This document shows, one piece after another, positions 57,913 to 62,528 of a stretch of DNA of 64,000 nt. The position numbers and the translations under genes are program-made. Where the stretch lies: contig NZ_CP070619.1 of the NCBI RefSeq assembly GCF_017068395.1, positions 1,736,001 to 1,800,000 on the forward strand, in the 5' to 3' direction. Source of the stretch: Rhodococcus pseudokoreensis. Its GTDB lineage: Bacteria > Actinomycetota > Actinomycetes > Mycobacteriales > Mycobacteriaceae. Position 1 is the stretch's first letter. The number at the start of each line of letters is the position of its first letter. The notes under the pieces were generated by a model. That model had not been told where the DNA came from. It worked only from the letters and a program-made list of their open reading frames with translations, and did not search any database.

Positions 57913-60396
57913 CTACAGCTTGATCATCGGGACGCCACCGATCAGCATCAGCCGGACCTTGCCCGCGCTGCCGAAGTCGATGGTGACCGTCGCGGTCGGC
58001 CCGGCTCCCTTGGTCTCGAGGACCGTGCCGAGGCCGTACTTGTCGTGACTGACCCGGTCGCCGACCGCGAGGACCAGGTTGTTGTTGCGGGAGCGCGCGG
58101 CGCCGAAGCTCGGGGTGCTCGCCGACCCGCCGCCGTAACCGGAACCGCCGCCGAACCCCTGCCCGTATCCCGATCCGCGCGCGCGGCCACCGCCGATCGC
58201 ACCACCGGAACCCATGCGGGGGCCCGGGTCCTCGCGGCGCCAGTGCACGAGATCCGACGGGATCTCCTGCAGGAACCGCGACTCCGGGTTCTGGATGGGC
58301 TGACCCCACGCCGATCGCATGACGGCCCGCGTCAGGTACAGCCGCTGCCGGGCCCGGGTGATGCCCACATAGGCGAGCCGCCGCTCCTCCGACAGTTCCG
58401 CGGGGTCGCCGAGCGCCCGCATGTGCGGGAACTGGCCGTCTTCCCACCCGGTGACGAAGACGACGGGGAACTCGAGCCCCTTCGCGGTGTGCAGGGTCAT
58501 CAGCGTGACGACGCCCTCGTCGTTGTCGGGCAGCTGGTCGGAGTCCGCGACGAGGGACACCCGCTCGAGGAACGCGGCGAGGGAACCGGGGTCGGGTTCG
58601 CCGTCCCTGGCGTCGACGTCGCCGTCCTCCGTCGGCTCCACCAGCCCTGCGGCGTTCCGCGCGTCGGAGCTGAACTCCCGCGCCACGCTGACGAGTTCGT
58701 TGAGGTTGTCGAGGCGCGCCCCGTCCTGCGGGTCGCTGCTCGCCGCGAGTTCGGCGCGGTAGCCCGTCCGCTCCAAAACCGCCTCCACGACGTCGCCGAT
58801 GTCGCCGAGCTGGTCGGGGACGATGTCGTCGGCCGTGGTCTCGGGCGGCATCAGCACCCGCAGTCCGTCCATCAGCTCGAGGAACGACGCGATGGCCTTC
58901 TGGGAGCGGGTGTTGAGCAGCCGCACCCGGCCCTCCCCACCGTCCCGCAGCGCCTCGGCGAAGCTTATGCCCCGCTGTTCGGAGTGGACGGCCACACACG
59001 CCTCCGCGCGGTCGCCGATGCCGCGGCGCGGGGTGTTGAGGATCCGGCGCAGGCTGACGGTGTCGTCCTCGTTGGCGAGAACCCGCAGATACGCGACGAT
59101 GTCGCGCACCTCCTTGCGCTCGTAGAACCGCACCCCGCCGACGACCTTGTACGGAACGCCGAGCCGGATGAAGATCTCTTCGAGCGCGCGGGACGAGTTG
59201 TTGGTGCGGTAGAAGACGGCGACGTCACCGAACTTGGCATCGCCCGAATCGACGAGTTTGTCGATCTCGGACGCCACGAACGACGCCTCGTCGTGCTCGT
59301 TGTCCGCGACGTACCCGGTGATGAGCTCACCCTCGCCCGAATCCGTCCACAGCCGCTTCTCGCGCCGGCCGGTGTTCTTCGAGATCACCGAGTTGGCCGC
59401 CGACAGGATGTTCTGGGTGGAGCGGTAGTTCTGCTCCAGCAGGATGGTGCGGGCGTCCGGGTAGTCGCGCTCGAACTCCTCGATGTTGCGGATCGTGGCG
59501 CCGCGGAACGCGTAGATCGACTGATCCGCGTCGCCCACCACACACAGCTCGGCCGGGGTGACCCGATGGTCCGCGTCCTCGCCGTCCGCGATGCCGCCGA
59601 CCAGTTCCCGCACCAGCATGTACTGGGCGTGGTTCGTGTCCTGGTACTCGTCGACCAGCACGTGCCGGAACCGTCGGCGGTAGTACTCGGCCACCTGGGG
59701 GAACGCCTGCAGCATCGCGACCGTCTCGCCGATCAGGTCGTCGAAGTCCAGTGCGTTCGCCGACCGCAACCGCTGCTGGTAGTGGCCGTACACCTTGGCG
59801 ATCAGCCGCGGCAGTTCCGCCGGCTCCTTGTCGGCGTCGGCGCTCGCCTGCTCCGGGTCGATCAACTCGTTCTTGAGATTCGAGATGTGGGTGGCGAGCA
59901 GCCGCGCCGAGTAGCGCTTGGTGTCGATGTTCAGATCCTTGGCGATCATCGTCAGCAGTCGCCGCGAATCGTCCGCGTCGTAGATGGAGAAGTTCGAGTT
60001 GAGGCCCGGAAGCAGCGCCGCCTGGGCCCGGAGGATCCGCACACAGCTCGCGTGGAACGTGGACACCCACATGCTGTTCGCCCGGGGGCCGACGAGGTGG
60101 GCGACCCGCTCCCGCATCTCGGCGGCGGCCTTGTTGGTGAACGTGATGGCCAGGATCTGCCCGGGCATCACCCCCCGCTCGGCCAGCAGATAGGCGATGC
60201 GGCGGGTGAGCACAGCCGTCTTGCCCGAGCCCGCGCCGGCGACGATCAGCAGCGGAGATCCGGCGTGCACGACCGCTTCCCGTTGCGGTGGGTTGAGGCC
60301 CTGGAGGAGCGCGTCGGACCCCGTGCGCGCCGGCGCGGCGGCGGGCGGAGTCGACTCGGCGCTCAGGGGAGAAGCGGTGCCGGAGATAGTGTTCAT
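57913..60396 (-). CDS. uvrD1: UvrD/PcrA-type DNA helicase (UvrD1)
   Basis: 827 residues. SF1A helicase motifs: Q/I region LNPPQREAVVHAGSPLLIVA with Walker A AGAGSGKTAVLTRR, motif II VDEYQDTNHAQY, motif III VGDADQSIYAFRGA, motif IV LEQNYRSTQNIL, motif V TLHTAKGLEFPVVFVTGWED and motif VI EERRLAYVGITRAR. The C terminus has a Gly-rich linker and a Tudor-like end (DRVSHDKYGLGTVLE), which in mycobacterial UvrD1 contacts Ku or RNA polymerase. It acts in nucleotide excision repair and replication-fork processing. Confidence 0.96.
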   Translation of the reverse strand: MNTISGTASPLSAESTPPAAAPARTGSDALLQGLNPPQREAVVHAGSPLLIVAGAGSGKTAVLTRRIAYLLAERGVMPGQILAITFTNKAAAEMRERVAHLVGPRANSMWVSTFHASCVRILRAQAALLPGLNSNFSIYDADDSRRLLTMIAKDLNIDTKRYSARLLATHISNLKNELIDPEQASADADKEPAELPRLIAKVYGHYQQRLRSANALDFDDLIGETVAMLQAFPQVAEYYRRRFRHVLVDEYQDTNHAQYMLVRELVGGIADGEDADHRVTPAELCVVGDADQSIYAFRGATIRNIEEFERDYPDARTILLEQNYRSTQNILSAANSVISKNTGRREKRLWTDSGEGELITGYVADNEHDEASFVASEIDKLVDSGDAKFGDVAVFYRTNNSSRALEEIFIRLGVPYKVVGGVRFYERKEVRDIVAYLRVLANEDDTVSLRRILNTPRRGIGDRAEACVAVHSEQRGISFAEALRDGGEGRVRLLNTRSQKAIASFLELMDGLRVLMPPETTADDIVPDQLGDIGDVVEAVLERTGYRAELAASSDPQDGARLDNLNELVSVAREFSSDARNAAGLVEPTEDGDVDARDGEPDPGSLAAFLERVSLVADSDQLPDNDEGVVTLMTLHTAKGLEFPVVFVTGWEDGQFPHMRALGDPAELSEERRLAYVGITRARQRLYLTRAVMRSAWGQPIQNPESRFLQEIPSDLVHWRREDPGPRMGSGGAIGGGRARGSGYGQGFGGGSGYGGGSASTPSFGAARSRNNNLVLAVGDRVSHDKYGLGTVLETKGAGPTATVTIDFGSAGKVRLMLIGGVPMIKL

Positions 60397-60477
60397 CAGG
60401 TATCCAACTTACCGGCGTGTACCGACAGCGTCACAGCGGCTTGGCCTGCGCGGTGCCGCCATGGCAAACTGGTACGT

Positions 60478-60549
60478 ATGTTCAGTCCGCCGTCGCGCCC
60501 CCTGTGGCGATTTTTTTACGGGTACCGGCCTCCGGTGCCCGTGAACTGA
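60478..60549 (+). CDS. aromatic leader peptide of the chorismate mutase gene
   Basis: 23 codons: the peptide reads MFSPPSRP-LWRFFYGYRPP-VPVN. One Trp, two adjacent Phe and two Tyr lie within seven residues. The coding bases from TAC GGG TAC CGG form the first arm of an attenuator (60518-60542). It ends 10 bp before a terminator and 121 bp before chorismate mutase, the branch enzyme for Phe and Tyr. A stalled ribosome at low charged tRNA-Phe or -Tyr would be expected to prevent termination. Confidence 0.8.
   Translation: MFSPPSRPLWRFFYGYRPPVPVN
60518..60542 (+). promoter_or_regulatory. attenuator arms 1 and 2
   Basis: ACGGGTACCGG (60518-60528) pairs with CCGGTGCCCGT (60532-60542) with one G-U pair and a 3-base loop. 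Arm 2 can instead pair as TCCGGTGC (60531-60538) with GCACCGGA (60573-60580) inside the terminator, forming the anti-terminator. Confidence 0.75.
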
Positions 60550-60559
60550 ACAGCTCACG

Positions 60560-60594
60560 AGCCCCGAGGTCCGCACCGGATCCGGGGCTTTTTT
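60560..60594 (+). terminator. attenuator terminator upstream of chorismate mutase
   Basis: AGCCCCG (60560-60566) pairs with CGGGGCT (60583-60589); an inner TCCG/CGGA helix adds stability. Six T follow. It lies between the leader stop and the chorismate mutase gene. Confidence 0.85.
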
Positions 60595-60669
60595 CGTCAA
60601 ATGAGCCTGGATCGGTAACGACTCGAGCCAAAACAACGATCCAAGTTCTGACAAGAGGGAGACGAACCA

Positions 60670-60966
60670 ATGAGCACTCAGACCGTCGCTTCAGCCGCCA
60701 AGGAAACCGCTGTGCCCACCAGCGAGGCCGAGATCGAGGTTCTCCGCCAGGAGATCGACAAGCTCGACGCCGAGATTCTCGCCGCGATCAAGCGCCGTGC
60801 CGAGGTCTCGCAGCTCATCGGGCGCACCCGGATGGCGTCCGGCGGTCCCCGCCTCGTCCACAGCCGTGAGATGAAGGTGCTCGAGCGGTTCAACGAGCTG
60901 GGCCAGGAAGGCCACACGCTCGCCATGCTGCTGCTGCGCCTCGGGCGCGGCCGCCTCGGTCACTGA
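60670..60966 (+). CDS. chorismate mutase (AroQ delta type)
   Basis: 98 residues; AGAGGGAGACGAACC precedes ATG 60670. The AroQ helical fold is recognisable: LRQEIDKLDAEILAAIKRRA, EVSQLIGRTRMASGGPRLVH and SREMKVLERFNELGQEG. The C terminus LLRLGRGRLGH is the mycobacterial type that docks onto DAHP synthase and is activated by it. It turns chorismate into prephenate for Phe and Tyr. Expression is probably controlled by the attenuator at 60478-60594. Counterpart of Rv0948c. Confidence 0.95.
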   Translation: MSTQTVASAAKETAVPTSEAEIEVLRQEIDKLDAEILAAIKRRAEVSQLIGRTRMASGGPRLVHSREMKVLERFNELGQEGHTLAMLLLRLGRGRLGH

Positions 60967-61004: not shown

Positions 61005-62459
61005 TCACGGTTCGAGTGCCACGTACTTGGTCTCCAGGTACTCCTCGATGCCTTCACTGCCCCCTTCGCGCCCGAAGCCTGACGCTTTGACGCCGCCGAA
61101 GGGGGCAGCGGTGTCCGAGATGACCCCGCGGTTGACGCCGACCATGCCCGATTCTATGGCGTCGGCCACCCGGAGCGCACGATCCAGGTCGCGGGTGAAG
61201 ATGTACGCCGCCAGCCCGAACTCCGTGTCGTTGGCGGCGGCGATCCCCTCCTCCTCTGTGTCGAACCCGGCGATCGCGGCCACCGGCCCGAACACCTCCT
61301 CCTTCAGGATCCGCGCCTGGGCGGGAATCTCGTCCAGCACCGTCGCCGGGTAGAAGTAGCCGGGACCTTCCGGGGCGACGCCACCGAGCCGCACCCGGGC
61401 ACCCGCGCCGACGGCGTCCTGTACCAGTTCCCCGACCTTCTCGAGCTGGTCCGCGTTGATCAGCGGGCCGAGCGTCGTGTCGCTGTCCGTGCCGGGGCCC
61501 AGCTTGTACGAGGACAGCTTGTCGACGAGTTTGGCGGTGAATTCCTCCCGCACACTGTTCGCGACGTGGAACCGATTGGCCGCGGTGCAGGCCTCGCCAC
61601 CGTTGCGCATCTTGGCGAGGAGGGCGCCCGCCACCGCCTTGTCGACGTCCGCGTCGTCGAATACCACGAAGGGCGCGTTCCCGCCGAGTTCCATCGAGGT
61701 GCGCAGCAGCCCCTTCGCCGACTTCTCGACGAGCATCCGCCCCACCCCGGTCGAGCCCGTGAACGTGAGCTTCCGCAGTCGCGGGTCGTCGATCAGCGGA
61801 CCGGTCACCTCGCCCGACTTCGACGTCGGCAGCACGGACAGGACGCCCTTCGGCAGTCCCGCGTCGGCCATGACCTCGGCGAGCAGCAGCATCGTCAGCG
61901 GCGTCTCGGAGGCAGGTTTGACGATCATCGTGCAGCCGGCGGCCAGGGCGGGCCCGATCTTGCGGGTGCCCATCGCGAGCGGGAAGTTCCACGGCGTGAT
62001 CGCCAGACACGGCCCGACGGGCTGCTTGGTCACCAGGATGCGCCCGTTGCCCGCTGGGGCCGGGGTGTAGCGGCCGGCGATGCGCACCGCTTCCTCGCTG
62101 AACCACCGGAAGAACTCGGCGCCGTACTTGACCTCCGCCGCGCTCTCCGGCAGCGCCTTGCCCATCTCCAGCGTCATCAGCAGCGCGAAGTCGTCGGCCC
62201 GGGCGGTGATCTTCTCGAACACCGCGCGCAGCAGTTCCCCGCGCTCCCGTGCCGGGGTGGCCGCCCACTCCCGCTGCACCGCCACCGCGGCGTCGAGCGC
62301 CTTCATCGCGTCGCCCGGACTGGCATCCGCCACCTCGGTGAGGGCGTCGCCGGTGGCCGGGTCGAAAACGGTGAACGTGGCACCGTTCTCGGCGTCGCGC
62401 TTCTCGCCACCGAGGAAGAGGGTCGTGGGAACGGTTCGCATGAGTTCGACAGCATCCAT
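61005..62459 (-). CDS. gabD2: succinate-semialdehyde dehydrogenase (second copy)
   Basis: 484 residues from ATG 62459 (several upstream ATGs leave the start uncertain). Catalytic Cys in [20 protein letters not shown] and Glu in [17 protein letters not shown], with [20 protein letters not shown] for the coenzyme. It is closely similar to the enzyme at 32877 along its whole length but stands alone beside pgi, away from the polyamine genes. Either a housekeeping copy or one with a different aldehyde range. Confidence 0.88.
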
Positions 62460-62528
62460 GACGTCCATCATGCGCCGCACCGAAGTTCGCACGGAAGTTT
62501 CGACGCGCGGGCATTAAGCTCGAATCTC

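Follow-up and report, generated by a model that had tools for sequence, protein, structure and literature searches.

The chorismate mutase locus

Chorismate mutase stands at the point where the synthesis of phenylalanine and tyrosine parts from the tryptophan branch. The window analysed here is a stretch of 64,000 nucleotides from the 9.87 Mb genome of Rhodococcus pseudokoreensis (G000:C6:1736001-1800000), and it carries a gene whose product was assigned as an AroQ chorismate mutase through profile matches to PF01817 (expectation value, E, 6e-12) and to NF005894 and TIGR01808, both above cut-off. The enzyme is identical to those of Rhodococcus wratislaviensis, R. koreensis, R. opacus and R. 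jostii. It is encoded by a single gene with no co-directional neighbour: a PcrA/UvrD-type helicase gene lies upstream (57913-60396, minus strand) and is divergent from it, and an aldehyde dehydrogenase gene lies downstream (61005-62492, minus strand) and faces it. The leader region that precedes the gene (Table 1) is very likely, judging from its sequence and that of its relatives, a transcription attenuator of the ribosome-mediated (leader-peptide) kind, with charged tRNA-Phe and tRNA-Tyr as the signals that it senses. The initial annotation had seen full ribosome-mediated attenuation geometry at this Phe/Tyr branch-point gene, and a conserved peptide and covarying hairpins support that view. 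The same genome contains a further, more divergent match to chorismate mutase, with 43% identity, at G000:C6:8496064-8496306.

Table 1. Features of the chorismate mutase leader region, in window coordinates (ORF, open reading frame; nt, nucleotides)
Feature	Position	Strand	Basis
Candidate -35 box TTGGCC, 18-nt spacer	60441..60446	+	by eye only
-10 box CAAACT	60465..60470	+	sequence and relatives
Leader ORF MFSPPSRPLWRFFYGYRPPVPVN and stop, 23 codons, probably leaderless	60478..60549	+	sequence and relatives
Core codons R11-F12-F13-Y14-G15-Y16 (CGA TTT TTT TAC GGG TAC)	60508..60525	+	82-element codon count
Arm 1 of pause hairpin (fold extends to 60515)	60518..60528	+	fold and covariation
Arm 2 of pause hairpin (fold extends to 60545)	60532..60542	+	fold and covariation
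Antiterminator 5' strand (arm 2 re-used)	60528..60544	+	fold and covariation
Antiterminator 3' strand, TCACGAGCCCCGAGGT, overlaps terminator 5' strand	60555..60570	+	fold and covariation
Alternative antiterminator partner from the initial annotation, pairs with 60531-60538	60573..60580	+	possible in R. pseudokoreensis; double changes give no support
Intrinsic terminator: stem 60560-60573/60577-60589, T6 60589-60594	60560..60594	+	fold, covariation
Post-terminator stem TGGATCG (60608-60614)/CGATCCA (60637-60643), conserved	60608..60643	+	relatives
Shine-Dalgarno region of chorismate mutase, AAGAGGGAGA	60653..60662	+	sequence
Chorismate mutase (AroQ, Rv0948c type), 98 aa	60670..60966	+	profile matches

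Leader peptide and promoter

The 23-codon leader ORF has the composition first ascribed to it, with Trp, Phe-Phe and two Tyr within seven residues (W10, F12, F13, Y14 and Y16), and its stop codon is at 60547-60549. The ORF had also been described as being in a good position; no Shine-Dalgarno sequence was seen before it, but its ATG stands 7 nt after a conserved -10 box, where transcription would start, and for this reason its translation is probably leaderless, with a transcript that would begin at or beside the start codon. The -10 box of relatives is mostly CAAACT, CAAAAT, CACACT or CAGACT, and its first base lies 12-13 nt before the leader start codon. When 63 related elements were searched by script for start codons 10-16 nt from the first base of a -10-type box, the leader-opening start was found at 12-13 nt except in L173, where none was found; L094 and L165 have a closer second candidate start, and the ORF of L093 is decayed. 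A sigma-70-type site was not found by a consensus scan. In the ribosome-free fold, an 8-base pairing is possible between the start region of the leader (60479-60486) and its stop region (60545-60552), which would enclose the entire pause hairpin, and a second terminator-like hairpin, with seven T after it, lies inside the R. pseudokoreensis leader ORF (60491-60509).

Control codons

Codons were counted at fixed positions, with no residue filter, in all 82 elements read at the family and order levels. Codon 12 specifies Phe in 75 of these and Tyr in 5 (Phe or Tyr in 80/82), codon 13 is Phe in 63, and codons 14 and 16 are Tyr in 63 and 61, respectively; codons 5-9, which precede this core, are aromatic in only 0-7 elements. 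The conserved leader core is R-F-F-Y-G, so that the short ORF contains codons for the amino acids to whose synthesis the controlled gene leads. Codon 10 is Trp in just 28 of the 82 leaders, so that sensing of tryptophan was rejected and the Trp codon was taken as incidental.

Codon choice within the core is also uniform, codon 11 being CGA in 70/82 and codon 12 UUU in 73/82 leaders, although in three genes of the locus TTT accounts for 0 of 46 Phe codons and CGA for 6 of 115 Arg codons. That one ancient attenuator, linking chorismate mutase to phenylalanine and tyrosine, existed in a common ancestor of much of the actinobacteria, with the slow pair CGA-UUU holding the ribosome at the decision point, is a possible but doubtful idea.

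Pause hairpin, terminator and antiterminator

Fold and covariation confirm that arm 1 (60518-60528), which spans the Tyr codons, pairs with arm 2 (60532-60542), as originally proposed, and the T6-tailed terminator placed at 60560-60594 is likewise borne out. The predicted fold lengthens hairpin 1:2, the pause hairpin, to 60515-60528/60532-60545 (14 base pairs, bp), and this hairpin overlaps the control codons. The terminator stem consists of 60560-60566/60583-60589 plus 60568-60573/60577-60582. The leader has a folding energy of -63.2 kcal/mol versus -41.1 +/- 3.7 in shuffles (z -5.9; 0/200), and the terminator by itself has a z of -4.3 (0/200 shuffles).

Covariation was read from three alignments. 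A2 holds 19 of the 22 sequences of alignment A1 (L002, L088 and L095 left out), 17 of them distinct and of Rhodococcus type; A4 holds 59 of 63 loci, 58 distinct, without L001 and L004 (near copies), L093 (decayed) and L194 (incomplete terminator); A5 holds 37 sequences, namely 19 chosen from the family and 18 of 20 order loci (L222 and L223 left out). The shuffles with which the counts are compared ignore the relatedness of the sequences, and the three sets, with 17, 58 and 37 distinct members, overlap. Hairpin 1:2 has double changes in 5/14 pairs and 15 alignment cells in A2 (cells 0/500 shuffles; pairs 29/500), in 7/12 pairs and 28 cells in A4, and in 9/13 pairs and 31 cells in the order-wide A5 (cells 0/500 shuffles in each of the latter two). 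In A2, A4 and A5, 90-97% of its cells are paired, but no more than 55% are when the partner strand is slid by 1-3 columns. The terminator has double changes in 6/12 pairs and 18 cells in A5 (cells 0/500 shuffles).

The antiterminator was folded from the RNA that is free while a ribosome covers arm 1, cut before the 3' strand of the terminator. In this stalled state the fold of the R. pseudokoreensis leader joins arm 2 to 60555-60570, a pairing that recurs in other sequences either unchanged or shifted. Depending on the species, the inner helix is CGTGA/TCACG, CGTGG/CCACG or CGCGG/CCGCG. Double changes occur in 4 pairs and 8 cells in A2 (cells 0/500; pairs 18/500 shuffles) and, in the register common to the 58 distinct sequences of A4, in 5/10 pairs and 12 cells (cells 0/500; pairs 4/500). 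In 71 of 77 sequences, arm 2 forms 4 bp or more with the 5' strand of the terminator. The antiterminator shares this strand with the terminator, so that pairing 2:3 and the terminator are mutually exclusive. The covariation observed is the pattern that the textbook attenuation arrangement predicts.

The partner of arm 2 differs from the one first suggested, which was an eight-base pairing with 60573-60580. Bases 60531-60538 can form this helix, but covariation favours 60555-60570 instead. With 60573-60580, 81% of cells are paired, 1 pair has a double change (190/500 shuffles) and the covariation score is reached in 32/500 shuffles; as its double changes are no more than those of shuffles, 60573-60580 was rejected as a conserved arm 3. 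The two antiterminator folds are near in energy in R. pseudokoreensis, and the 60573-60580 pairing may be used in this species, since the minimum-energy fold of 60529-60583 (-21.5 kcal/mol) contains the 60531-60538/60573-60580 helix along with the conserved CGUGA/UCACG helix.

Distribution among actinobacteria

Relatives were drawn from the best 80 of 222 named loci and thirty more. The leader is present in R. wratislaviensis, R. koreensis, R. opacus, R. jostii, R. tibetensis, R. marinonascens, R. erythropolis, R. globerulus, R. triatomae, some Rhodococcus without a species name and Prescottella defluvii, in forms that include WRFFYGYR..PV, WRYFTC.GPR, WHYFTSAGPR and HWRFPSGYRP; the copy in one genome (L093) is decayed. 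A search model, R1, was built from the 19 Rhodococcus-type sequences of A2. In the 9.87 Mb genome its one strong match is the chorismate mutase leader (E 1.3e-30, this copy having been in the training set), and the next best match is at 0.003. Across 401 family genomes R1 has a match in 159 at E <= 0.1, and matches below 1e-5 are confined to genera g1, g10, g12, g18, g22 and g29. At all 40 family loci fetched, the R1 match (down to E 1.7e-5) is upstream of chorismate mutase, the gene having been identified by a motif script at 37 loci and by eye at L158, L161 and L193.

Genus g29 is absent from the R1 training set and provides the independent evidence: at the 34 g29 loci that were read, the matches (E 1.7e-5 to 1.5e-17) lie ahead of chorismate mutase. 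One g29 leader, which has a GTG start, reads VLNAQWRFFYGYRPAVPVV up to its stop codon. Genus g29 is probably Mycobacterium, since the enzyme of its locus L178 aligns end to end with Rv0948c of M. tuberculosis in PDB. A second model, R2, was built from A4 and is thus partly trained on g29; it matches 225 of 248 g29 genomes at E <= 0.001, 219 of them below 1e-6 by hand count.

At the order level, R2 matches 179 of 298 genomes, family included, at E <= 0.001, and 19 of 20 non-family matches precede chorismate mutase, with leaders that end, for example, in RFFYGNRAPAPVDA, RFFYGYRSSVPVVAG or RQFYYGYRPPVPVSG before the stop codon. L223, a terminator without chorismate mutase, was rejected as a copy of the element. 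A third model, R3, built from A5, has matches at E <= 1e-4 in 65 of 256 class genomes; within Rhodococcus, the genus of the window, 25 of 28 genomes have an R3 match below 1e-11, and the remaining three have weak matches or none. The 27 non-family class matches that were read comprise 13 that precede chorismate mutase, for instance the leader MLTQTTFLFTYGNRPTGCHGRAA (followed by a stop codon) in a genus with 6-11 Mb genomes, 7 that precede 3-deoxy-D-arabino-heptulosonate 7-phosphate (DAHP) synthase and 7 that precede neither. DAHP synthase was called by hidden Markov model search in 2 of the 7 and by likeness in the other five; its leaders include MQRKFWRFYGYRPSG... At loci L269-L274 and L282 (families f31 and f28), DAHP synthase is preceded by a terminator and by a leader in which Phe, Trp or Tyr codons occur. 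The check for second copies in the R. pseudokoreensis genome covered three of the weaker R1/R3 matches (C6:1519547, 7985389 and 7437845), which were rejected as they have no such leader and look like ordinary terminators.

Absence and decay of the leader

The leader peptide and hairpins are conserved and covarying in Rhodococcus, but the conservation in relatives that the initial annotation had asked about does not extend to Nocardia: no R3 match lies upstream of chorismate mutase in 42 Nocardia loci, where R3 matches lie after the gene. Of these 42 loci, 32 have an ORF of 22-24 codons that is leaderless and keeps the spacing from the -10 box but not the FFY core; it is perhaps a decayed or re-purposed leader. 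Some of the Nocardia ORFs (L023, L053 and L080 are among the loci) have a GYR remnant. The leader was also not found by scan in some other loci, e.g., L022 and L025 of R. fascians.

Absence was surveyed in 27 genomes, mostly of genera with weak or no matches, and 24 upstream regions were readable, the three of g3 being excluded; no R3 match below E 0.5 was found at the three g3 chorismate mutase loci. By eye, the gene stands directly behind its promoter, with no leader, in 15 of the 24 readable regions (among them L243, L244, L247, L250, L251, L253, L256-L258, L260 and L262). Weak matches before the gene in L248 (g24) and L259 (g29) may be decayed copies. Other family genera have weak R1 matches (E about 1e-4 to 0.1). 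The attenuator has perhaps been lost more than once.

Proposed mechanism and alternative explanations

What the analysis shows is the parts, their conservation and their covariation. The start site, the translation of the leader, ribosome stalling, termination and a response to phenylalanine and tyrosine are inferred. Transcription would start at or next to the leader start codon, and ribosomes would load without a Shine-Dalgarno sequence. With phenylalanine and tyrosine plentiful, the ribosome would pass CGA-UUU-UUU-UAC and proceed to the stop codon, where its footprint would take in arm 2 and the beginning of arm 3; with the terminator then able to form, transcription would end upstream of the gene. 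A shortage of charged tRNA-Phe or tRNA-Tyr would stall the ribosome with codon 12, 13 or 14 in the A site, covering arm 1 (60515-60528) and leaving arm 2 free to pair with 60555-60570; this pairing would sequester the terminator 5' strand and allow read-through. In the absence of a ribosome, hairpin 1:2 and the terminator would both form, giving basal termination. The coverage of the arms follows from the general size of the ribosome footprint. Chorismate mutase would most likely be made only when phenylalanine or tyrosine is scarce.

Several observations weigh against attenuation. The models that find the 82 elements use sequence, and codon conservation is therefore partly conditioned on the search. 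The antiterminator is imperfect, with 84% (A2) and 89% (A4) of cells paired and several pairs failing in many sequences; its register shifts among genera, and arm 2 has a modest energy advantage over its shuffled versions (median z -1.2; 71/77 negative). When the terminator is complete, it persists in the fold predicted for the whole segment in the stalled state, and therefore the switch would have to be kinetic. Double changes in the terminator are not above shuffles in the smaller sets A2 and A4. In the U-tract of the terminator, at least five T occur within 9 nt in 23/26, 30/33 and 13/18 sequences by group, and a run of four T in 16/26, 3/33 and 8/18; the group with 3/33 is genus g29, where intrinsic termination is uncertain for this reason. 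Finally, some genera keep chorismate mutase without the leader, which is thus dispensable.

The peptide itself might act instead of the codons, RFFYG(Y)R, perhaps with a C-terminal PVPV, stalling the ribosome as a nascent-chain arrest peptide on free phenylalanine, free tyrosine or another ligand. R11, which does not serve as a control residue and is not part of hairpin 1:2, is nevertheless conserved in 75 of the 82 leaders, and G15 (74/82) and R17 (72/82) are kept as well. However, the codons for G15, R17 and PVPV sit in the covarying hairpin, so that RNA pairing can explain them, and some lineages have P, S, T or L at positions 13 and 14, all of which makes an arrest peptide improbable.

Control could also fall mainly on the translation of chorismate mutase, with the leader secondary, through the post-terminator stem near the Shine-Dalgarno sequence. 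This stem has double changes in 2/7 pairs (11/500 shuffles), and a similar stem occurs in Nocardia, where no attenuator was found. Nevertheless, the stem leaves the Shine-Dalgarno region uncovered, and none of the 34 g29 loci, which keep the leader, has its GTAACG loop motif downstream of the element; translational control as the main function is thus most improbable, and the stem may be an independent element. In Rhodococcus the stem TGGATCG/CGATCCA is accompanied by a conserved GGTAACG, mostly 14 nt from motif to 3' strand, ahead of the Shine-Dalgarno sequence, and sequences like it are also seen in Nocardia.

A constitutive premature terminator with an accidental ORF and no sensing would suit the nearly invariant inner G-C pairs of the terminator, but it is just as improbable given that codon 12 is Phe or Tyr in nearly all leaders, that hairpin 1:2 covaries and the start distance is kept, and that the helicase, being divergent and on the minus strand, does not own the terminator.

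Relation to known attenuators

An Rfam scan of 60400-60700 (E up to 5) gave four chance-level matches and no leader family. The hairpin logic of the chorismate mutase attenuator proposed here (1:2, 2:3 and 3:4) is that of pheL-pheA in enteric bacteria. The pheL leader has Phe codons only, precedes a bifunctional enzyme and has a Shine-Dalgarno sequence, unlike the Rhodococcus leader. pheL-pheA, which is named in PMC11802643, is also an attenuator of a chorismate-mutase-bearing enzyme. The AroR-aroF attenuator of Corynebacterium glutamicum, which is ribosome-mediated and has a Phe-Tyr-Phe leader (PMC11802643, PMC4046766), is likewise an actinobacterial attenuator of a shikimate-pathway gene, but it controls DAHP synthase whereas the Rhodococcus element precedes chorismate mutase.

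The trpL, ilvL and leuL leaders of Streptomyces, Corynebacterium and Mycobacterium are also short control-codon ORFs, often leaderless and several with intrinsic terminators, although they serve other amino acids and genes, and chorismate mutase is not named in the excerpts (PMC1262725, PMC8079986, PMC13236596). For actinobacteria, Seliverstov (2005; PMC1262725) reported Trp, Cys, Leu and ileS elements; structures for other pathways are not given in the excerpt. Eight leaders are described for S. lividans, none of them, in the part represented, for chorismate mutase (PMC8079986); Shell (2015; PMC4633059) described Cys upstream ORFs, and an ilvB1 attenuator is described in M. tuberculosis (PMC13236596). 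The string FFYGYR was not found in the main texts searched. No description of a chorismate mutase attenuator was found among the literature matches listed, in agreement with the first assessment that none was known for an Rv0948c-type enzyme; some likely sources lie outside this coverage, and an earlier mention is possible.

Chorismate mutase of the Rv0948c type is activated by complex formation with DAHP synthase, according to the excerpts (PMC7762937, PMC4281200), and a transcriptional switch would add a layer to its control. If the slow pair CGA-UUU indeed holds the ribosome at the decision point, this rare pair would bring a leaderless ribosome into step with RNA polymerase or make the response sharper. 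The leader peptide, the hairpins, their absence in some genera and the similar leader of DAHP synthase would be traceable across the whole class.
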